Assembly (NCBI RefSeq): GCF_000711295.1
Contig: NZ_JOMJ01000003.1
Coordinates: 2,181,501-2,245,500 of the forward strand
DNA length: 64,000 nt
DNA from: Desulfohalovibrio reitneri
GTDB lineage: Bacteria > Desulfobacterota > Desulfovibrionia > Desulfovibrionales > Desulfovibrionaceae
Direction: 5' to 3'
Shown here one piece after another: positions 21,092 through 29,127 of the stretch. Position 1 is the stretch's first letter. Each line of letters begins with the position of its first letter. The translations under genes and the position numbers were made by a program. Under the pieces are notes generated by a model. It searched no databases. It was not told the origin of the DNA and saw only the letters and a list, made by a program, of their open reading frames with translations.

Positions 21092-21107
21092 GTCTGCTTG
21101 TCTTTCC

Positions 21108-21136
21108 CGCCGCCCCTGGGCGGCGCAGCCCTTTTT
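21108..21136 (+). terminator. Leader stem-loop with T-run before the 37-residue gene
   Basis: CGCCGCC (21108-21114) pairs with 21119-21125 around CCTG. After six bases comes TTTTT (21132-21136), then the ribosome site TGGAGGA at 21141-21147. It could be a leaky terminator, an attenuator or a stabilising leader hairpin. Confidence 0.5.
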
Positions 21137-21151
21137 ATTCTGGAGGAACAC

Positions 21152-21265
21152 ATGGCCCGCCACAAGAAGCACGAGCGCAAGAAAGAACTGGACCGCCGCC
21201 GCAAGCGCCGCAAAGAGCGCGTCAAGGCCCGCATCCGGGCCGAGAAGGAAAAGGGCGGCAAGTAG
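21152..21265 (+). CDS. 37-residue highly basic protein
   Basis: A very small protein made almost only of Lys, Arg, Glu and His (MARHKKHERKKELDRRRKRR and a similar remainder), with a predicted long charged helix. TGGAGGA at correct spacing and the strong promoter upstream argue that it is real and well expressed. Composition resembles small RNA- or ribosome-binding proteins. No family assignment is secure. It ends 160 bases before the FmdB gene. Confidence 0.7.
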   Translation: MARHKKHERKKELDRRRKRRKERVKARIRAEKEKGGK

Positions 21266-21328
21266 CCGCCCCAGCCCGGCCGCCAGACCCGTTTTCCGCC
21301 GCCGGTCCATCCGGGCCGGCGGTGGCTC

Positions 21329-21356
21329 TTGACGAACCGGGTTCCCGACTTATCAA
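21329..21356 (+). promoter_or_regulatory. sigma-70-like promoter for the FmdB gene
   Basis: TTGACG (21329-21334), a 16-base spacer, and TATCAA (21351-21356), 70 bases before the FmdB ATG. The match is moderate. Confidence 0.45.
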
Positions 21357-21425
21357 ACGATTCGGCCACGGAACCGGCCGCGTCTTCGCATATTTAAGAG
21401 GAACCGCCAACGGAGTTGCGTCACC

Positions 21426-21758
21426 ATGCCCATCTATGAATACCAGTGCCCCGACTGCGAGAATATCTTCGAGGAGTGGCAGAAAAGCGTGGAGGCCGAA
21501 GTCGCGCCTTGCCCCGACTGCCAGACAGAGTCCCCGCGCATCATTTCCAACACGTCCTTCGTGCTCAAGGGCTCGGGCTGGTATGTGACCGACTACTGCC
21601 AGGGCAAGTCGTCCAGCGGCAACGGCAACGGCAATGACACCGGAAATGGAAACGGCAACGGCTCCGACAAAAAGGAGTCCTCCTCGACCGCCGATTCCTC
21701 CGCCTCGTCCTCTTCGGACTCCTCGTCGTCGTCCGCTTCCTCGTCCACCGAGGCGTAA
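21426..21758 (+). CDS. FmdB-family zinc ribbon protein with Ser/Gly/Asn-rich tail
   Basis: A 110-residue protein. Residues 1-60 are the FmdB domain: MPIYEY start, a zinc ribbon with Cys8/Cys11 and Cys29/Cys32, and the conserved GSGWYVTDY end. The remaining 45 residues are low complexity, first Gly-Asn repeats and then a run of Ser with Asp. FmdB proteins were first linked to formamidase/amidase regulation but are widespread and of unknown role. A 7-bp terminator follows, so the gene is separate from purB. Confidence 0.88.
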   Translation: MPIYEYQCPDCENIFEEWQKSVEAEVAPCPDCQTESPRIISNTSFVLKGSGWYVTDYCQGKSSSGNGNGNDTGNGNGNGSDKKESSSTADSSASSSSDSSSSSASSSTEA

Positions 21759-21780
21759 AAGCGGCCTGACGGATTGTGCA

Positions 21781-21804
21781 AGGCGGCTCCGGCCGCCTTT
21801 TTTT
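21781..21804 (+). terminator. Intrinsic terminator after the FmdB gene
   Basis: AGGCGGC (21781-21787) pairs with GCCGCCT (21792-21798) around TCCG, followed by a T-run to 21804. It lies 60 bases before the purB start, so purB needs its own promoter in that short gap or depends on read-through. Confidence 0.85.
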
Positions 21805-21863
21805 ACGTCCGGAAACAAGGTAGAACCTGCCTCGACGACGCCAACCGCGACCTGGAAGGAAGC

Positions 21864-23177
21864 ATGATCGAGCGCTACACCCGCCCCGAGATGGGGGCGC
21901 TGTGGACCCTGGAGAACAAGTTCGCCGCCTGGCTGGAGGTGGAACTGGCCGTTTGCGAGGCTTGGCGCAGCCTGGGCCGCATCCCCGACGACGCCATGGC
22001 CGAGATCCGCGAGAAGGCCGCCTTCGACCTGGACCGCATCCTGGAGATCGAGAAGACCACCCGCCACGACGTCATAGCTTTCCTCACCGCCGTGGAGGAG
22101 AAGGTCGGCCCGTCCGCCCGCTACATCCACCTGGGCTGCACCTCCTCGGACATCGTGGACACGGCCAACGGCCTGCTTCTGGGCCGCGCCGGGGACATGG
22201 TGGTGGAGGCCATCGACTCCCTCGTCGAGCAGCTCAAGTCCATGGCCCTGGCCCACAAGGGCAGGCTCTGCATGGGCCGCACCCACGGCATCCACGCCGA
22301 ACCCACCTCCTTCGCCCTGAAGATGACCTCTTTCGCGGCCGAGTTCATGCGCCACCGCGAGCGGGTGGCCGAGGCGGTCAAGGGCGTCAAGGTGGGCAAG
22401 ATTTCCGGCGCGGTGGGCACCTACGCCTTCCTCTCCCCGGAGATGGAGGAGCGCGCCCTGAACATCCTCGGCCTGAAGGTGGACCCCGTTTCCACCCAGA
22501 TCGTGCAGCGCGACCGCCACGCCGCCTTCTTCACCGCCCTGGCGGTCATGGCGGGCGGTGTGGAACGTTTGTGCGTGGAGCTGCGCCACCTGCAGCGCAC
22601 CGAGGTGCTGGAGGTGGAGGAGGGCTTCGCCAAGGGGCAGAAGGGCTCCTCGGCCATGCCCCACAAGAAGAACCCCATCTCCGCCGAGAACATGACAGGG
22701 CTGTCCCGGCTCATCCGCTCCAACTCCCTGGCCTCCATGGAGAACATGGCCCTGTGGCACGAGCGGGACATCTCCCACTCCTCGGTGGAGCGGGTCATCA
22801 TGCCGGACTCCACCATCCTGGCCGACTACGTGCTGCACCGCCTGCGGGGGGTGCTCTCGCGACTGGTGGTCAAGCCGGAGAACATGGAGCGCAACCTCAT
22901 GGGCTCCTACGGGCTGTTCTTCTCCCAGCGCGTGCTTTTGGGCCTGGTGGACAAGGGGCTGCCGCGGCAGGAGGCCTACGAGAAGGTGCAGGCCGTGGCC
23001 ATGCGCTGCTGGGAGGAGTCGAGGCCCTTCCCGGACGAGGTGCGGGCCGAGCCGTCCATAACCGAGCACCTCGGCCCGGACGAGCTTGAAGAATTGTTTG
23101 ATCCCGGCTATTACCTCGGCCACGAGGACCTCATCCTGAAACGGGTTTTCGGCACCTGCGAGACGACCGCGACATGA
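21864..23177 (+). CDS. purB: Adenylosuccinate lyase
   Basis: A 437-residue cytoplasmic enzyme that removes fumarate from SAICAR and from adenylosuccinate in purine synthesis. The fumarase/aspartase signature SSAMPHKKNPISAENMTG is near residue 265; CTSSDIVDTAN and GRTHGIHAEPT are the other active-site regions. ATG 21864, with GGAAGGA upstream, gives the family N-terminus (MIERYTRPEM). The frame is open to 21774 across the terminator, which cannot be coding. It is the first gene of a run of overlapping genes (ATGA with pyrE). Confidence 0.97.
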   Translation: MIERYTRPEMGALWTLENKFAAWLEVELAVCEAWRSLGRIPDDAMAEIREKAAFDLDRILEIEKTTRHDVIAFLTAVEEKVGPSARYIHLGCTSSDIVDTANGLLLGRAGDMVVEAIDSLVEQLKSMALAHKGRLCMGRTHGIHAEPTSFALKMTSFAAEFMRHRERVAEAVKGVKVGKISGAVGTYAFLSPEMEERALNILGLKVDPVSTQIVQRDRHAAFFTALAVMAGGVERLCVELRHLQRTEVLEVEEGFAKGQKGSSAMPHKKNPISAENMTGLSRLIRSNSLASMENMALWHERDISHSSVERVIMPDSTILADYVLHRLRGVLSRLVVKPENMERNLMGSYGLFFSQRVLLGLVDKGLPRQEAYEKVQAVAMRCWEESRPFPDEVRAEPSITEHLGPDELEELFDPGYYLGHEDLILKRVFGTCETTAT

Positions 23178-23731
23178 ACGACCACAAGGCCCGCCTGGCC
23201 AAGCTCCTGATGGAGAAGTCCTATGTGGCCGGGGAGATAACCCTCTCCTCCGGCCGCAAGTCCGATTACTATTTCGACTGCAAGCAGACCGCCTACCACC
23301 CCGAGGGCGCCTGGCTGCTGGGCAACCTGCTGCTGGACGCCCTCGACGGCCTGGATGTTGACGGCGTGGGCGGCCTGACCCTGGGGGCGGACCCCCTGGT
23401 CACGGCCGTGAACGTGGTCTCCTATGAGCGCGGCACGCCCCTGCCCGGCTTCATCGTGCGCAAGGAGGCCAAGGGCCACGGCACCGGCCGCTTCGTGGAG
23501 GGGGCCGCCAACCTGGCCCCGGGCGCGCGGGTGGCCGTGCTGGAGGACGTGGTCACATCCGGCGGCAGCGTGCTCAAGGCGGTGGAGCGCATCCGCGAGG
23601 CCGGTTTCGAGGTGGCCTGCGTGGTGGCCGTGCTGGACCGCCACGAGGGCGGCACCGAGGCCCTGGCCGACGCCGGGCTGGACCTGCGCAGCCTCTTCAC
23701 CCGGCCCGAACTGGTGGAGGCGGGCGGCTGA
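23174..23731 (+). CDS. pyrE: Orotate phosphoribosyltransferase
   Basis: A 185-residue enzyme that joins orotate to PRPP to make orotidine monophosphate in pyrimidine synthesis. The PRPP-binding signature VAVLEDVVTSGGSVLKAV is near residue 120, and SGRKSDYYFDCK near residue 25. Length is typical of the shorter PyrE type. ATG overlaps the purB stop by four bases, and its TGA shares a base with the next ATG, so the nucleotide genes are coupled to the cell-wall genes that follow. Confidence 0.96.
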   Translation: MNDHKARLAKLLMEKSYVAGEITLSSGRKSDYYFDCKQTAYHPEGAWLLGNLLLDALDGLDVDGVGGLTLGADPLVTAVNVVSYERGTPLPGFIVRKEAKGHGTGRFVEGAANLAPGARVAVLEDVVTSGGSVLKAVERIREAGFEVACVVAVLDRHEGGTEALADAGLDLRSLFTRPELVEAGG

Positions 23732-24999
23732 TGCGCCCCTTCCCGGCCATAGCGGCGGCGCTGCTGGCCGCCGCCGTCCTGGCCGGCGCGCCTGGCGCGC
23801 GGGCGTGGGACCTGACTCTGCAGGACTCGCCCACATCGCCCGAATTCTTCCTGGCCGTGGCCAAGCAGCGGCAGACCGTGCTGGCTTTCGGCCGCCACTC
23901 CCCGCTGAACCTGCGCAAGAGCCTGACCTGCACCACCGGGCAGAAGCCGGGCGACAAGCTCCGAGAGGGCGACCTCAAGACCCCGGAGGGGGTCTACTTC
24001 GTGCAGCGCAAGCGCACCGGCGGGCTGGATTTCGAACTGTACGGCGACACCGCCTACACCCTGGACTATCCCAATCCGGTGGACGTGCTGAAGGGCAAGA
24101 CCGGTTCGGGCATCTGGGTGCACGGCCGGGGGCGCGCTCTGACCCCGCGCGACACCAAGGGCTGCGTGGCACTGAACAACGACGACTTGGCGGGCATCGG
24201 CCCCGACCTGGCCCCCGGCGTGCCGGTGGTCATCGCCCGCGAGGTGGCCTTTTCCGCCGAGCCGGGCGAGATGAGCCGCACCGCCGAGGAACTGGCCAGG
24301 CGGGTGCGTGGCTGGGCCGAGGCCTGGGCCGCCAAGAGCCCCGAGTTCTTCTCCTACTACCATCCCGGGCGCTACTCCAAGGCGGAGCGCGCCTTCGAGC
24401 GCTTCCGCCAGCGCAAGCAGCGCATCTTCGACCAGGTGGACTGGATAGCCGTGCGGGTGCATGACATCCGCGCCCTTCCCGGTCCCGACTACTGGGTGAC
24501 GTGGTTCGGCCAGTACTACCGCACCCCGCAGATGGATTCGCAAATCGTCAAGCGCCTCTACTGGCAGAAGGACGAGGACGGGGAATGGCGCATCGTGGGC
24601 AACGAGTACGCCCGGCCGGAAGGCGACTATCGCCGCGACTACCTGCTCCACGCCCGCCAGGAGGCCATGGAGTTGGTGGCCGGCTGGCGCGAGGCCTGGG
24701 AGCGGGCCGACCTGGAGGAGTACGCCTCCTACTACGCCCCGGGGGCGGAGCAGGAAGGCCGCGAGGGACTGGAGGAGATTACCGCCCACAAGCGGGAGGT
24801 CTGGGACAAGGGGCTGCCCGAGCGGGTGGACGTGGAGGGCTTTTCCGCCCGGCTGCATCCCGATGGCCTGCAAGTCAGCTTTACCCAGCGATACTCGGCC
24901 GAGAGCGGCTACTCCGATGTTGGCCGCAAAACGTTGGTGCTGGAGCCCTCGGGTGACGGCTGGCGCATCGTTTCCGAAGAGTGGCGGAGGATTTCATGA
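23731..24999 (+). CDS. YkuD-fold L,D-peptidase with tandem NTF2-like domains (Csd6/Pgp2-like)
   Basis: A 422-residue exported protein with a signal peptide ending near residue 25. A YkuD domain at about 45-165 has catalytic His131 in GIWVHG and Cys145 in TKGCVAL. Two NTF2/SnoaL-like domains follow, at about 190-305 and 310-422. This architecture, YkuD followed by NTF2, is that of Csd6 of Helicobacter pylori and Pgp2 of Campylobacter, which trim tetrapeptide stems to tripeptides (L,D-carboxypeptidase) and set helical shape; those have one NTF2 domain. A crosslinking L,D-transpeptidase is the alternative. The gene three places along encodes a Csd4-like enzyme, which supports the shape role. Confidence 0.82.
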   Translation: MRPFPAIAAALLAAAVLAGAPGARAWDLTLQDSPTSPEFFLAVAKQRQTVLAFGRHSPLNLRKSLTCTTGQKPGDKLREGDLKTPEGVYFVQRKRTGGLDFELYGDTAYTLDYPNPVDVLKGKTGSGIWVHGRGRALTPRDTKGCVALNNDDLAGIGPDLAPGVPVVIAREVAFSAEPGEMSRTAEELARRVRGWAEAWAAKSPEFFSYYHPGRYSKAERAFERFRQRKQRIFDQVDWIAVRVHDIRALPGPDYWVTWFGQYYRTPQMDSQIVKRLYWQKDEDGEWRIVGNEYARPEGDYRRDYLLHARQEAMELVAGWREAWERADLEEYASYYAPGAEQEGREGLEEITAHKREVWDKGLPERVDVEGFSARLHPDGLQVSFTQRYSAESGYSDVGRKTLVLEPSGDGWRIVSEEWRRIS

Positions 25000-25706
25000 G
25001 CCGCTCCAAGTATTCCGTGCTCCTCATGCGCGACGACCGCCACGTGCGCCGTTTCCGCATGCATCCCTTCTGGATCAAGTGTTTCGTCTGGTTTCTGGCC
25101 CTGCTCATCCTGGTCGCGGGCGGCGGGCTCTTCGCGGGCTACCATTTCTGGCAAGAGAACCAGGAGCTGACCCGCGCCCGCAAGATGCTGGAGCGTCGGC
25201 TCATCGAGGCCGAGGTGCGCATGGAGCGGCTGGAGAACGTGGAGAAGATCCTCCAGTCCAACGACCCGGACGACCTGCAGGCCCTCTTGGGTTCGGTGGA
25301 GTCGGATCAGGTCCCCGACACCCCGCCCATGGACCTCTCGGAGATCTTTTCCCAGGTGGACTCCCACCAGGCCGGAGTGGAGAACATCCAGGCCAAGTTC
25401 ACCGGCCGCGGCATGCGGGTTCGCTTCGACCTCAACTACATGCAGACGGACAAGAGCCAGAAGTGGCTTTCCGGCGAGGTGGAATTCGCCCTGGTGACGA
25501 ACACCGGCCGGCTGGAGCGGGCGGAGGCGCAGGACCCCTCGGACCTGTCCTTCTCCATCCAGAAGTTCAAGCAGATACGGGCCACGCTGACCCTGCCCGA
25601 AGGCCTGGAGCAAAGCGACGTATTCGGCCTGCGCCTGGTCATCCGCACACCCGAGGGCAAGGCGATCTTCAGTGACACCTATCCGCTGTACCGCGTCCTC
25701 TCCTAG
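24996..25706 (+). CDS. Single-pass membrane protein with periplasmic coiled coil
   Basis: A 236-residue protein of unknown family. A basic N-terminus of about 26 residues, one transmembrane helix at about 27-49, a charged coiled coil at about 52-88 (ELTRARKMLERRLIEAEVRM) and a periplasmic globular domain to the end with alternating beta pattern. It starts with an ATGA overlap and its 3' end overlaps the next gene by 35 bases, so it is tightly bound to the two peptidoglycan peptidase genes. A scaffold that positions the peptidases is an inference from context. Confidence 0.75.
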   Translation: MSRSKYSVLLMRDDRHVRRFRMHPFWIKCFVWFLALLILVAGGGLFAGYHFWQENQELTRARKMLERRLIEAEVRMERLENVEKILQSNDPDDLQALLGSVESDQVPDTPPMDLSEIFSQVDSHQAGVENIQAKFTGRGMRVRFDLNYMQTDKSQKWLSGEVEFALVTNTGRLERAEAQDPSDLSFSIQKFKQIRATLTLPEGLEQSDVFGLRLVIRTPEGKAIFSDTYPLYRVLS

Positions 25707-27435
25707 ACTTCCCGCCGCGGCCCTGCTGCTGGTCCTCATCCTGCTGCTCCCGGCGGCCGCCCCGGGGAGCAGCCACGTCTTCTTCGAGGACACCCAGTAC
25801 CCCCTGGAGGTCCACGTGCTGCGCGGGCGCCAGCCCGGCCCCACGGTCATGGTGCAGGGCGGCATCCAGGGCGACGAGGTGGCCGGGTACCTAGCCGCCC
25901 AGCGCCTCACCGAGGCGGAGGTGGAGCGGGGGCGGCTGATCATCGTCCCCCGGGCCAACGCCCCCTCCATCAGCCGCCGGACGCGGCAGGTCAACGTGGA
26001 CCTCAACCGCCGCTTCGACCGCGACCGCTCCCGCTTCTACGAGGACCGGCTGGCCCGGGTCATCTCCCACTACCTGGGCATGGCCGACGCCTTCATCCAC
26101 CTGCACGAGGGCTCCGGCTTTTACAGCCCCACCTACGTCAACCACCTGCGTAACCCCCGCCGCTGGGGCCAGAGCGTCATCATCGACACGGCCAGCTACC
26201 GGTCCATACCACTGGCCGACTACGCCGAAGGGGTGCTCAAGCGGCTCAACCCGCAGGTGGACCCCGCGGACTACCGCTTCGCCCTGTTCAACACCCGCAC
26301 CTTCGACGACGACTCCCCATACAGCCAGTCCATGAGCAAGTCCCTGACCTGCCACGCCCTCACGGCTCACGGCATCCCGGCCCTGGCCATCGAGGTCTCC
26401 AAGAACATCGACCGGCTCGACTGGAAAGTGCGCGAGCAACTCAAGGCCACCCGGCTCTTTCTGGAAACCTTCGGGGTGCATATCGAACTGCCGGAAGCCC
26501 CGCCCGGCCACTTCGACAAGCACGCCGGGAGCAGGCCGGGCCTTCGGGTCAACGGCCGCCCGCTGGAGCCGGACGAACCGCTGCGCCTTTCCCTGGGCGA
26601 CACGGTGCGGCTGGACGCGATATCTTCCTACGCCGGGGCCCCTCGCGCCGAGCCCGCCCTGTTCGCCCCCGGCGGCGAACTGGACCTCTCCCGCACGCCC
26701 TTCACCGCCCTGCGCCCCCTGGACGGACTGGAAGTGCGGGCCGACGGCCGCAGCGTGGGCAAGGTGAAGGTGGACTGGACCGGCGAGGAGCCGCGCGACG
26801 GGGAGGACGGCCTGCTGGTGCTGCGGCGCAACGGCCGCCAGCGGTTCCTGGCGCCGGGACAGAGCCTGGACGTGATCGAGGGCGACCGGGTGGTGCTGGA
26901 GGGGGTGTGGGGCAGCCCGCGCGAGGAGGTGCTCAACGTCAAGGGCATCGTCACTTCCACCGGAACCAACCACGGCCAGGACGCGGGCAAGGAGATCGTG
27001 CTTGAGAAGCGGGCCTTCATCCAGCGCTACCTGGAACCGGCCGGGGGGGAGCGGGTGCGGGTGCGCATCGCCCGCGAAACCGAAGGCGCGCCCCGGCAGG
27101 AATATTTTCTGGAGATGCGGCCGCGCGAGGTCCAGGCGCTGATGCTGGTGCGCCACGACGGCGAGCACGTGCTGCTGCCCTGGCGGGACGGCTCGACGTT
27201 CCCCCTGGCGCCGGGCACCTACCGCCTGGCCGGGGCCTGGTCCAATGGCGAGAGCATCCGGCTGACCCCCATGCTGGACGGCCTGCCCCTGGACTGGGGC
27301 TCCACCCTGCGGGTGGGCTTCGACGAGGTGCGGCGCTTCGAGTTGCGGCAGGCCTCCACCTTCCGCCCCATGGGCTCCATGCGCCTTTCCGCCGCCGCCC
27401 TGGCCATGCTGGGCGAAGCCACCCGGACACACTGA
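25672..27435 (+). CDS. M14-type D,L-carboxypeptidase (Csd4/Pgp1-like)
   Basis: A 587-residue exported protein with a signal peptide (hydrophobic 14-30). The catalytic domain covers about 40-270: the zinc motif GGIQGDE puts Gln66 and Glu69 where most M14 carboxypeptidases have His and Glu, with the third ligand in FIHLHEG (His143 or His145) and the substrate arginine in VDLNRRF. A Gln ligand is the hallmark of Helicobacter Csd4 and Campylobacter Pgp1, which turn tripeptide stems into dipeptides and are required for helical shape. Roughly 300 further residues form beta-rich domains. GTG 25672 is used; no better start precedes the signal peptide. Confidence 0.82.
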   Translation: MTPIRCTASSPRLPAAALLLVLILLLPAAAPGSSHVFFEDTQYPLEVHVLRGRQPGPTVMVQGGIQGDEVAGYLAAQRLTEAEVERGRLIIVPRANAPSISRRTRQVNVDLNRRFDRDRSRFYEDRLARVISHYLGMADAFIHLHEGSGFYSPTYVNHLRNPRRWGQSVIIDTASYRSIPLADYAEGVLKRLNPQVDPADYRFALFNTRTFDDDSPYSQSMSKSLTCHALTAHGIPALAIEVSKNIDRLDWKVREQLKATRLFLETFGVHIELPEAPPGHFDKHAGSRPGLRVNGRPLEPDEPLRLSLGDTVRLDAISSYAGAPRAEPALFAPGGELDLSRTPFTALRPLDGLEVRADGRSVGKVKVDWTGEEPRDGEDGLLVLRRNGRQRFLAPGQSLDVIEGDRVVLEGVWGSPREEVLNVKGIVTSTGTNHGQDAGKEIVLEKRAFIQRYLEPAGGERVRVRIARETEGAPRQEYFLEMRPREVQALMLVRHDGEHVLLPWRDGSTFPLAPGTYRLAGAWSNGESIRLTPMLDGLPLDWGSTLRVGFDEVRRFELRQASTFRPMGSMRLSAAALAMLGEATRTH

Positions 27436-27455
27436 CCGGCCATTCCGGAAGAACC

Positions 27456-28271
27456 ATGCCGTTCGCCAACCTGCCCCTGCGCTACGTCCATGAGCGGCCC
27501 CGCTATCTGAAACTCTTCCTGAGCCAGTCCATCCGGCCCGAACTGGGGCTGGACGCCTGGGCCATCGACCAGCCGGGCGAGGCGTGGCACCGCCACGTGA
27601 CTTCCGCCTTTGCCAGCGCCGGTCTGCCCCGCGCCATCCATCTGCCCTTCGACGACCTCCACCCGGCCAGCGAGGACCCGGTGGCCCTGCGCGCCGCCCG
27701 CATCCGTCTGGGCAGCGCGGTGGAGATCGCCCGCATCCACGACCCGGTGCACCTGATCGGCCATCCTACCCTGGGGCACCTGCCCTTCGAGGGGTCGGCG
27801 CGGCGGCAGCACGAGGCCGGGGTGGAGAGCTGGCTGGAGGTGCTGGCCGCCTGGGGCGGGGACCATCCTCCGCTGTACCTGGAGAACACTTTCGACAGCG
27901 ACCCCGTGCGGCTGCGCGATTTGGTGGCGGAGGTGGCCGAGCGCGCCCCCGGCACGGTGGGCATCTGCTTCGACGTTGGGCACTGGCACACCTTCTCCCA
28001 CGGGGCGGCCAAGAAGGATCTGGGCTTCTGGCTGGAGACTCTGGGGGCGTACATCGGCCACGTCCACCTGCACGACAACTTCGGCCGCGACGACGACCAC
28101 CTGGGCATCGGCGCCGGGGCCGTGCCCTGGGACGAGCTGCTGGAGCGCATGGCGGCCATTGGCACACGGCCCACCGTGACATTGGAGCCGCACTCGGAGG
28201 AGGACTACGCCGTCTCCGCGCGGTATCTGGCGGAGCACGCGGAGCGGCTGGGGAAGGTGTTCAGCCTGTAG
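27456..28271 (+). CDS. Sugar phosphate isomerase/epimerase-like TIM barrel protein
   Basis: A 271-residue protein of the xylose isomerase-like (AP endonuclease 2) superfamily. Metal-binding acidic and histidine residues appear in order: PLYLENTF, GICFDVGHWH, HVHLHDNFG and VTLEPH. The order fits a divalent-metal TIM barrel acting on a sugar or on abasic DNA. No specific substrate can be named. It begins 20 bases after the Csd4-like gene and probably ends that operon. Its 3' end overlaps the convergent pseudouridine synthase by 11 bases. Confidence 0.8.
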   Translation: MPFANLPLRYVHERPRYLKLFLSQSIRPELGLDAWAIDQPGEAWHRHVTSAFASAGLPRAIHLPFDDLHPASEDPVALRAARIRLGSAVEIARIHDPVHLIGHPTLGHLPFEGSARRQHEAGVESWLEVLAAWGGDHPPLYLENTFDSDPVRLRDLVAEVAERAPGTVGICFDVGHWHTFSHGAAKKDLGFWLETLGAYIGHVHLHDNFGRDDDHLGIGAGAVPWDELLERMAAIGTRPTVTLEPHSEEDYAVSARYLAEHAERLGKVFSL

Positions 28272-29127
28272 GCCAGGCGTGGGGCGGGGCCCAGTCCGGG
28301 TCCAGCCACAGGCAGTAGCACGGCAGTTCCAGCCGCCAGGCGTGCAGCATGAGCGGGGTGGCGTGGGGCGGCGCGCCGTACTTGCGGTCGCCGAGCAGCG
28401 GGTGCCCGCGCGAGGCCAGCTGCACCCGGATCTGGTGGGTGCGTCCGGTGAGCAACTCCACCTCCACCAGGGTGGCGTCCTCCCGCACCAAGAGGGGACG
28501 CACCACGGCCCGCGCCTCGCGGCCGGACTCGGTGACGCGCATCTTCTCCATCTCCCCGGTCTCCGCACCCTTTTCCAGCTTGTCCACCACCTCGGTCTCG
28601 CCGGAATGGGGCCACTTTCCGGCCACCCAGGCCAGGTAGCGCTTGCCCACCCCGCGTTCCTCGAACAGCCGGTGCAGCCAGCGCTGGGAGGCGTGGCTGC
28701 GCCCGGCCAGCAGCAGGCCGGTGGTGTCCTTGTCCAGGCGGTGGGCCGGGGCGGGGGGGTAGTCGGCCCCGGGGAACATGGCCCGCATGCGGTCGGCCAC
28801 GGAGTCGTTCCAGCCCGCGCCGCGCTGGGTGGGCAGGCCGCGCGGCTTGGCCACGGCCAGCACGTCCTCGTTTTGGAAGACGATCTCCAGGGGAGGGCGG
28901 GGCTTCTCCTCGCGCGTGGCCGGGGTGTGCGGGGGGATGCGCACCTTCTCGCCCTCGCGCAGCTTGCGGAAGGGCTTGGCCCGGCCGCCGTCCACCCGCA
29001 CCTGGCCGGTGCGAACCCACTTCATCACCGCGCCGCGCGGCACGCCCTCGCCCACGCGGCGCTGCAGGAAATCCACCAGCTTGCAGCCGGCTTCGGCGCG
29101 GGAGACGGTGACGGTGCGCGCGCTCAC
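28261..29127 (-). CDS. RluC/RluD-family rRNA pseudouridine synthase
   Basis: A 288-residue RNA-modifying enzyme. An S4 RNA-binding domain lies at about 12-70 and the catalytic domain follows, with HRLDKDTTGLLL holding the catalytic Asp and LTGRTHQIRVQLA the second signature. It is predicted to isomerise uridines of 23S rRNA; whether it is RluC, RluD or another paralogue cannot be told. GTG at 29127 overlaps the stop of the TRAP large permease gene (GTGA), so it is the last cistron of that unit. Confidence 0.9.
   Translation of the reverse strand: MSARTVTVSRAEAGCKLVDFLQRRVGEGVPRGAVMKWVRTGQVRVDGGRAKPFRKLREGEKVRIPPHTPATREEKPRPPLEIVFQNEDVLAVAKPRGLPTQRGAGWNDSVADRMRAMFPGADYPPAPAHRLDKDTTGLLLAGRSHASQRWLHRLFEERGVGKRYLAWVAGKWPHSGETEVVDKLEKGAETGEMEKMRVTESGREARAVVRPLLVREDATLVEVELLTGRTHQIRVQLASRGHPLLGDRKYGAPPHATPLMLHAWRLELPCYCLWLDPDWAPPHAWPTG

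Follow-up and report, generated by a model that had tools for sequence, protein, structure and literature searches.

Gene run at the locus

The window analysed here, a 64,000-nucleotide stretch (G000:C3:2181501-2245500) of the 3.39 Mb genome of Desulfohalovibrio reitneri, carries on its plus strand at 21864-28271 six genes in series, namely purB, pyrE, a csd6-like gene, a gene for a membrane coiled-coil protein (hereafter designated the middle gene, or coil), a csd4-like gene, and a TIM-barrel gene (Table 1). Given the listed starts, the pyrE/csd6, csd6/coil, and coil/csd4 pairs overlap by 1, 4, and 35 bases, respectively, and a single transcription unit from purB to the TIM-barrel gene is the simplest reading. 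The stem-loop 5' of purB is a possible upstream border of this unit; a consensus scan of 21100-28500 found no sigma-70-like site, and such scans prove nothing. The arrangement csd6-coil-csd4 is not due to chance, because the order recurs across the class Desulfovibrionia and in other families of the phylum.

Table 1 Positions of the genes and protein regions of the csd6-coil-csd4 locus in the window
Feature	Position	Strand	Basis
Terminator-like stem-loop with T run, just 5' of purB	21780..21799	+	Consensus match only; 3 found vs 3.7 expected in shuffles
purB, adenylosuccinate lyase	21864..23177	+	Lyase_1 7.8e-51, ADSL_C 8.4e-25; reading frame opens at 21774, start assigned to the MIERYT ATG
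Phosphoribosyltransferase, read as pyrE (orotate)	23174..23731	+	Pribosyltran 1.5e-6; name rests on position and likeness
csd6-like gene: YkuD domain (His131, Cys145), two NTF2-like (Cds6_C) domains	23731..24999	+	Pfam, PDB relatives
Middle gene (coil): bitopic coiled-coil protein, 236 residues, proposed bactofilin-docking adaptor	24996..25706	+	Profile searches, model, tail comparison
Middle protein residues 6-22, predicted cytoplasmic β-hairpin (YSVLLMRDDRHVRRFRM), LmdC-tail-like	25011..25061	+	Model, tail profile comparison
Middle protein residues 24-88, membrane segment continuing into coiled coil, single predicted helix	25065..25259	+	Model; membrane span and coiled coil judged from sequence
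Middle protein residues 126-230, predicted periplasmic immunoglobulin (Ig)-like β-sandwich	25371..25685	+	Model, structure comparison
csd4-like gene: M99 carboxypeptidase (Gln66, Glu69, His145, Glu241), three Csd4 domains and an extra C-terminal β stretch (about 484-587)	25672..27435	+	Pfam, PDB, model
TIM-barrel gene, xylose isomerase-like, often last of the unit	27456..28271	+	Below CbiR cut-off

The csd6-like product contains a YkuD domain (Pfam, 3.7e-12) and two NTF2-like stretches of the Cds6_C family (6.4e-27), and its nearest relatives in the PDB are Bd1075 (7o21, 4e-31), Csd6 (4xzz, 1.1e-22), and Pgp2 (6xj6, 4.1e-21), in alignments with which His131 and Cys145 are in place. The coordinates of the locus and the domain layout of this product that a first-pass annotation of the window had given were borne out. 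The match begins at residue 40 of the query and residue 78 of Csd6, leaving no N-terminal dimerisation domain, as in Bd1075, and we therefore file the protein in the wider Csd6/Pgp2/Bd1075 family and not in the Csd6/Pgp2 subgroup. Bd1075, itself without this domain, is reported to give the vibrioid Bdellovibrio cell its curve. Judged by its sequence, the csd6-like product is a Csd6/Pgp2/Bd1075-type protein, presumably a secreted L,D-carboxypeptidase that converts tetrapeptide stems of peptidoglycan to tripeptides. A narrow regular expression for the Csd6 His-Cys pair was rejected as a test, 34 of the 150 csd6 open reading frames (ORFs) being left unmatched; among 15 of these that were inspected, a wider pattern finds the pair in 9 and inspection by eye in 2, 3 are truncated by the locus edge, and 1 (L121) has no YkuD domain. 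In L085, L137, L143, and further loci from genomes of the Desulfovibrio type, Csd6-like ORFs reach ~700-900 residues, some of them with long linkers rich in Pro and Ala behind an NTF2-like domain.

The csd4-like product matches Peptidase_M99 (Pfam, 2.9e-27), with Csd4 (4wck/4q6m, 1e-20) as its nearest PDB relative. Its residues Gln66, Glu69, His145, and Glu241 are invariant across 30 aligned M99 proteins, and Gln occupies the metal site in all 95 distinct M99 ORFs of the collected loci that show the surrounding pattern, one further fragment without the pattern standing outside this count. The metal motif of Csd4 (QxxE plus His, not HxxE) and its three domains have been described (PMC4220969). 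An AlphaFold2 model of the window protein (mean predicted local distance difference test score (pLDDT), 89) contains a carboxypeptidase domain, a β-barrel, and an Ig-like domain in series, followed by the further C-terminal β stretch, and aligns over residues 19-438 of Csd4, that is, over all three domains (Z 33.5; next rows Z 21); the large root-mean-square deviation (rmsd) of 15.2 Å over 366 residues suggests that the domains are shifted relative to Csd4 in the model. By sequence and predicted fold, the last of the three products is a Csd4-type M99 carboxypeptidase, which by analogy would act on tripeptides to give dipeptides. The Csd6- and Csd4-type identities had already been proposed at first pass and hold by sequence for both and by predicted fold also for the latter; the "M14-type" peptidase with Gln66-x2-Glu69 named there keeps its motif, in an M99 protein, and lies two genes on from the csd6-like gene, not three.

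A second type of M99 protein, distinguished by its score (about 190-300 bits vs about 87-131), lies outside the operon in several genera in which the operon itself has no csd4 (L087-L094, L002-L031), and there it gives a far better Pfam score; one csd4 thus seems to have been exchanged for another. Among the matches listed, G011, G157, and G187 have more than one M99 match each, so that the two types may share a genome in places.

The middle protein and its tail

The middle protein matched no Pfam family over the cut-off, no M23 peptidase in Pfam, no SH3 domain at E up to 1, and no PDB entry at E 0.001. Its assignment to DUF6776 (PF20567) was rejected, since the score is 19.0 bits against a cut-off of 27 and, of 60 relatives, a single one gave a match (E up to 0.01), likewise below the cut-off. 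The predicted structure (mean pLDDT 91) consists of a β-hairpin (6-10/18-22), a helix (24-88), and an Ig-like sandwich (126-230), whose best structural likeness is to the Ig-like domains of family 2 glycosidases (Z 10.7, rmsd 2.0 Å over 101 residues).

The tail of the middle protein is KYSVLLMRDDRHVRRFRMHPFW, and the LmdC-type M23 protein of the same genome, encoded by a separate gene (G000:C3, L228), starts after a few residues with KYNVVVFKDEVGQCRKFRCRAW; the two tails align in register. In LmdC of Hyphomonas and Rhodospirillum, a cytoplasmic hairpin region is reported to bind, or recruit to, bactofilin (PMC10945521). A hidden Markov model (HMM) of the 30-residue tail alone found no LmdC among 11489 ORFs, and a profile-profile comparison was needed. 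Here, hhalign of 60 coil rows, 55 of which entered, against 31 LmdC rows, all pre-trimmed by motif pattern, gave over 24 columns a probability of 92.9 and a P of 3.8e-7, the probability rising to 96.1 with the membrane segment included. None of 300 column permutations, which retain the trimming, reached the tail score (best 14.7 vs 25.7), and 10 control sets from 8 families, including the bitopic PBP2-type MrdA, gave at most 0.5 on tails and at most 12.1 with membrane segments; these sets were cut at protein starts and not motif-trimmed, and 2 of the 10 repeat a family (csd6, M99), one of these two being partly out of frame. Moreover, the full coil profile ranked LmdC proteins top among the non-coil ORFs of the collected loci (own LmdC, 6.7e-7) and also picked up the own LmdC in the whole genome (1.3e-6).

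By analogy, the middle protein would work like the anchor of LmdC without being an LmdC itself. That the likeness arose instead by convergence of short N-in membrane tails, with common ancestry accounting for the co-occurrence described below, seems to us very improbable. The brevity of the alignment, the trimming of the rows, and the failure of the tail HMM would fit such an origin, as would the few independent losses and the nearly equal trend of csd6 on the tree; the permutations, the negative control sets, and the joining of coil and bactofilin in gene runs of other families argue against it.

Co-occurrence and gene order

Every gene search was run on one set of 199 genomes of the class. 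Matches were obtained for csd6 in 180 genomes (at E 0.001, including partial or relocated ones in G046, f4, and g15), for coil in 159, for M99 in 152, for bactofilin in 168 (166 over the Pfam cut-off, the other two being read as the weak matches in G008, 8.9e-5, and G055, 1.1e-5), and for LmdC, searched by its N-terminal part only, in 164; the genomes without an M99, coil, bactofilin, or LmdC match were partly named by subtraction from the matched ones (27, 20, 11, and 15, respectively). With absence of bactofilin defined as no match over the cut-off, coil and bactofilin occur together in 158 genomes, coil only in 1, bactofilin only in 8, and neither in 32 (Fisher p 2e-28); the corresponding counts are 163, 1, 3, and 32 for LmdC (2e-32) and 162, 18, 4, and 15 for csd6 (2e-10), the cells having been counted by hand and the p values ignoring kinship. 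In the 32 genomes with neither bactofilin nor an LmdC match, a coil match is absent from all 32 and a csd6 match is kept in 17. Among the eight bactofilin-positive genomes counted without coil, a profile search recovers it in G006 (5.5e-77, one internal stop) and G013 (3.3e-74), and the contig of G102 stops after csd6; G065, G133, and G192 were counted as coil-less, and the remaining two, G034 and G177, are taken up below. The profile search for coil was also empty in G008, which has no bactofilin over the cut-off.

Of the 152 genomes with M99, only G133, in which pyrE was not matched either, has no csd6 match; csd6 stands without M99 in 29 of 180. This one-sided dependence fits a trimming order from tetra- to tri- to dipeptide, as reported elsewhere (PMC3961634, PMC10151779), and would be expected if the second enzyme requires the product of the first.

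Gene order was compared in 40 loci fetched from the class, of which 31 contain coil, one is the bactofilin region of the window's own genome (L103), and eight surround M99 genes located elsewhere (L087-L094); pyrE relatives for contig comparison were the best 80 of 563. The order purB-pyrE-csd6-coil is found in 27 of the 31 coil loci, so that the physical coupling to purB-pyrE suggested at first pass is real and conserved; three others have purB-pyrE-coil without csd6 (L078, L097, L102), and L086 has csd6-coil at a contig end. The own-genome bactofilin gene follows a PBP2-type gene and rodA (L103:5139-8543, G000:C3, about 108 kb from the window genes), an order also present in 8 of 10 other class genomes examined. 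In the class of the window, the trimming unit and bactofilin are thus encoded apart, and the PBP2-type/rodA neighbourhood would tie bactofilin expression to the elongation machinery.

In a search of 345 genomes of the phylum, the middle-protein profile gave matches in 77, and 64 of these lie outside the order. Twenty of the 64, mostly the best-scoring, were fetched as an outside-class sample, in which matches limited to the first 85 residues may be LmdC; two places proved to be LmdC-type M23 genes and 18 coil-like loci, one of them with a coil-like ORF of only 175 aa (L289). The runs of these 18 contain csd6 in 14, M99 in 11, bactofilin in 7 (all over the Pfam cut-off; L279, L281, and L282, apparently bactofilin-bearing by eye, are not counted), and purB or pyrE in 6. 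Indeed, bactofilin sometimes lies directly downstream of csd6-coil-csd4, and once lmdC accompanies it: in L293, pyrE, csd6, coil, M99, an M23 lmdC (9.1e-34), and bactofilin (7.3e-27) form one run. The tail, the co-occurrence, and these gene runs give new support to the first-pass proposal that the membrane coiled-coil protein is a scaffold, and narrow it to a bactofilin-docking adaptor.

The same data bear on the explanation that the middle protein is a third partner of bactofilin and LmdC, loading or regulating either, which makes no contact with the Csd6- and Csd4-type proteins, the gene order then reflecting a common shape regulon only. Coil does track bactofilin and LmdC more closely than csd6 does (of the 33 genomes without bactofilin over the cut-off, 18 keep a csd6 match and one keeps coil); moreover, G056 has coil and no csd6 match, L078 and L097 have coil and no csd6 at the locus, and the C. 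jejuni counterparts of Csd6 and bactofilin are reported to act independently. Against this explanation, csd6 adjoins coil in 14 of the 18 outside-class loci and in 28 of the 31 class coil loci, and in each of these two sets M99 follows in 11 loci; we regard this explanation as unlikely, though deserving to be kept in sight.

Two further observations concern the neighbourhood. The TIM-barrel protein shows a likeness to CbiR (5e-15) that lies under the CbiR cut-off, and in many loci its gene is again found next to csd4 or coil. Of the loci L126 and L110, from two near relatives in genus g41, only one has csd6 between pyrE and the TIM-barrel gene; the difference is clean and seems to be recent.

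Proposed mechanism and comparison with known systems

Collectively, we lean with modest confidence toward the reading that csd6, coil, and csd4 encode a periplasmic stem-trimming unit tied to bactofilin by the bitopic middle protein, and that trimming at bactofilin bends the cell. The middle protein would span the inner membrane, with its cytoplasmic β-hairpin docking on the bactofilin filament below the membrane, like the similar tail of LmdC, and with its coiled coil and Ig-like domain extending into the periplasm, where they may hold or steer both carboxypeptidases or their place of work. The Csd6-type enzyme would then trim tetra- to tripeptides and the Csd4-type enzyme tri- to dipeptides where bactofilin lies, beside the LmdC endopeptidase, and this stem trimming would reduce cross-linking on one face so that the cell bends.

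Several observations weigh against this adaptor reading. In addition to the failure of the tail HMM to find LmdC, two genomes (G034, which we take to be Desulfohalobium, and G177) have bactofilin and no coil at the locus, and G160 keeps coil with no bactofilin found; the bactofilin gene of G034 lies beside an M23 gene (L304:4675-6348), a classical M23-bactofilin pair that the search with the N-terminal part of LmdC had missed. On a purB+pyrE tree, the well-supported branches yield 5 independent pairs, and in 4.9 of these coil agrees with bactofilin (median sign-test p 0.0625, the lowest value that 5 pairs allow); the best tree yields 8 pairs, so that the contrasts are few. Likewise, csd6 is concordant in 3.9 of the same 5 pairs, and the contrast between coil and csd6 on the tree is slight. 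A purB-only tree, with 4 well-supported pairs, was weaker and was set aside. The four f4 genomes, by our guess Desulfomicrobium, keep coil, bactofilin, and LmdC and have no M99, and the two inspected also have no csd6 at the locus; they were rejected as simple csd6 losses, another YkuD protein being encoded elsewhere (open frames of 426, 424, 491, and 435 aa). Among better-studied relatives, pgp2/bactofilin double mutants of C. jejuni are reported to indicate separate, independent pathways (PMC10151779), and Csd6 of H. pylori apparently binds none of CcmA, Csd5, and Csd7 (PMC9507126). Our confidence in the bactofilin-adaptor reading is held down because csd6 shows nearly the same tree trend and because the LmdC search missed one M23 gene.

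As for cell shape, the first-pass annotation had taken the genes for the curvature-determining set of a vibrioid bacterium, and published shape is at hand for very few of the sampled genomes. Desulfovibrio species are mainly curved and D. piger is described as an immobile rod (PMC8069399). In agreement with a role in curvature, purB-pyrE is present at the locus of D. piger ATCC 29098 (L131, 20.6 kb) and csd6, coil, and M99 are absent, and in the genome of D. piger PG-251-APC-1 (G063; 12000 of 12000 bases identical to L132) none of csd6, coil, M99, bactofilin, and LmdC was matched. Two other genomes bear names that we assume: G046, which we take to be Lawsonia, and G071, which we take to be Ca. 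Desulfovibrio trichonymphae. G046 keeps bactofilin, LmdC, and coil; its csd6-like ORF (L121:9103-10008), next to the coil ORF, matches Cds6_C (4e-14) and not YkuD, the one other YkuD protein, of 191 aa, is encoded elsewhere, and there is no M99 match. Lawsonia is a curved bacterium (PMC10029905). Should this name be correct, some curvature in the order does without the two enzymes, a further point against the adaptor reading. The D. piger rod fits the first-pass claim and the presumed Lawsonia genome does not; in the bacterium of the window, the csd6-coil-csd4 set may determine curvature.

It is also conceivable that the enzymes serve peptidoglycan turnover, recycling, or envelope stress and not curvature, their loss in gut lineages being genome reduction. 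Several genomes without the set are small or host-associated, and the presumed Lawsonia would be curved with neither a YkuD domain at the locus nor csd4. On the other side, none of the ten g41 genomes sampled (2.3 to 4.3 Mb) has a bactofilin, LmdC, or coil match, so that the loss is not confined to small genomes; Csd6, Pgp2, Bd1075, Csd4, and Pgp1 all act in shape; and the set is wholly absent from the rod D. piger. We consider a role in turnover, recycling, or envelope stress and not in curvature improbable.

We know of no established cause of curvature in curved sulfate reducers. Both bactofilin and the carboxypeptidases that trim stems are reported to affect shape in H. pylori and C. jejuni. 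If the adaptor reading is true, a conserved adaptor between two enzymes, sometimes beside bactofilin, joins both shape pathways and offers a route into cell shape in Desulfovibrio, whose laboratory strains can be mutated; the tail of the middle protein suggests a way in which trimming could be targeted in curved sulfate reducers and related bacteria.

The individual enzymes have well-studied counterparts. Csd6 (H. pylori), Pgp2 (C. jejuni), and Bd1075 (Bdellovibrio), the last being the nearest solved relative, have the same YkuD fold with the His-Cys pair and an NTF2-like C-terminal domain as the window protein, which differs in having two NTF2-like domains, against one in these three, and in the position of its gene in one run with coil and csd4. 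Likewise, the M99 D,L-carboxypeptidases Csd4 (H. pylori) and Pgp1 (C. jejuni) have the QxxE-plus-His metal site and the three-domain layout in common with the window M99 protein, which is set apart by an identity of about 22%, by the extra C-terminal β stretch, and by its operon position. Csd4 was reported in 2012 to be conserved in Delta- and Epsilonproteobacteria (PMC3310797), and csd4 and csd6 homologues were later reported to lie within 300 bp of each other in Nitratiruptor, Nautilia, Desulfococcus, and Persephonella, one of which is a deltaproteobacterium (Frirdich 2014, PMC3961634). These pgp1-pgp2 neighbourhoods are alike in the csd4/csd6 proximity, and the middle gene, bactofilin, and the purB-pyrE link are not mentioned in the accessible part of that paper. 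The statement made at first pass that no such operon had been described thus meets no contradiction for this lineage in the open-licence papers searched, whereas the proximity of csd6 and csd4 had been published in 2014 for others; the operon is not wholly new, and the middle protein is its new part. No mention of this protein, of its bactofilin-type tail, or of this gene cluster in Desulfovibrio was met in those papers, mostly at the level of abstracts.

For the middle protein, Csd5 of H. pylori is a counterpart in layout. Csd5 is bitopic and non-enzymatic, as proposed for the middle protein, and is reported to bind bactofilin CcmA through its cytoplasmic end (PMC9507126) and Csd4 in vitro (PMC4220969), thus touching both. 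It has been called unique to the genus Helicobacter (PMC9507126) or to H. pylori and close relatives (PMC4220969). The middle protein has an Ig-like domain in the model and no SH3 domain was found in it; the likeness of the two is one of layout. In our view, the chances are even that the middle protein is the first member of a new family of non-enzymatic adaptors with LmdC-type tails that couple bactofilin to the Csd6-Csd4 pathway across the phylum, a counterpart of Csd5 and a missing link between the two shape pathways. Another likeness is to LmdC of Hyphomonas and Rhodospirillum, a bactofilin-bound M23 endopeptidase with a short cytoplasmic β-hairpin tail, one membrane helix, and a coiled coil as in the middle protein; in the latter, a predicted Ig-like domain replaces the M23 peptidase, and the gene stands beside csd6 and csd4.

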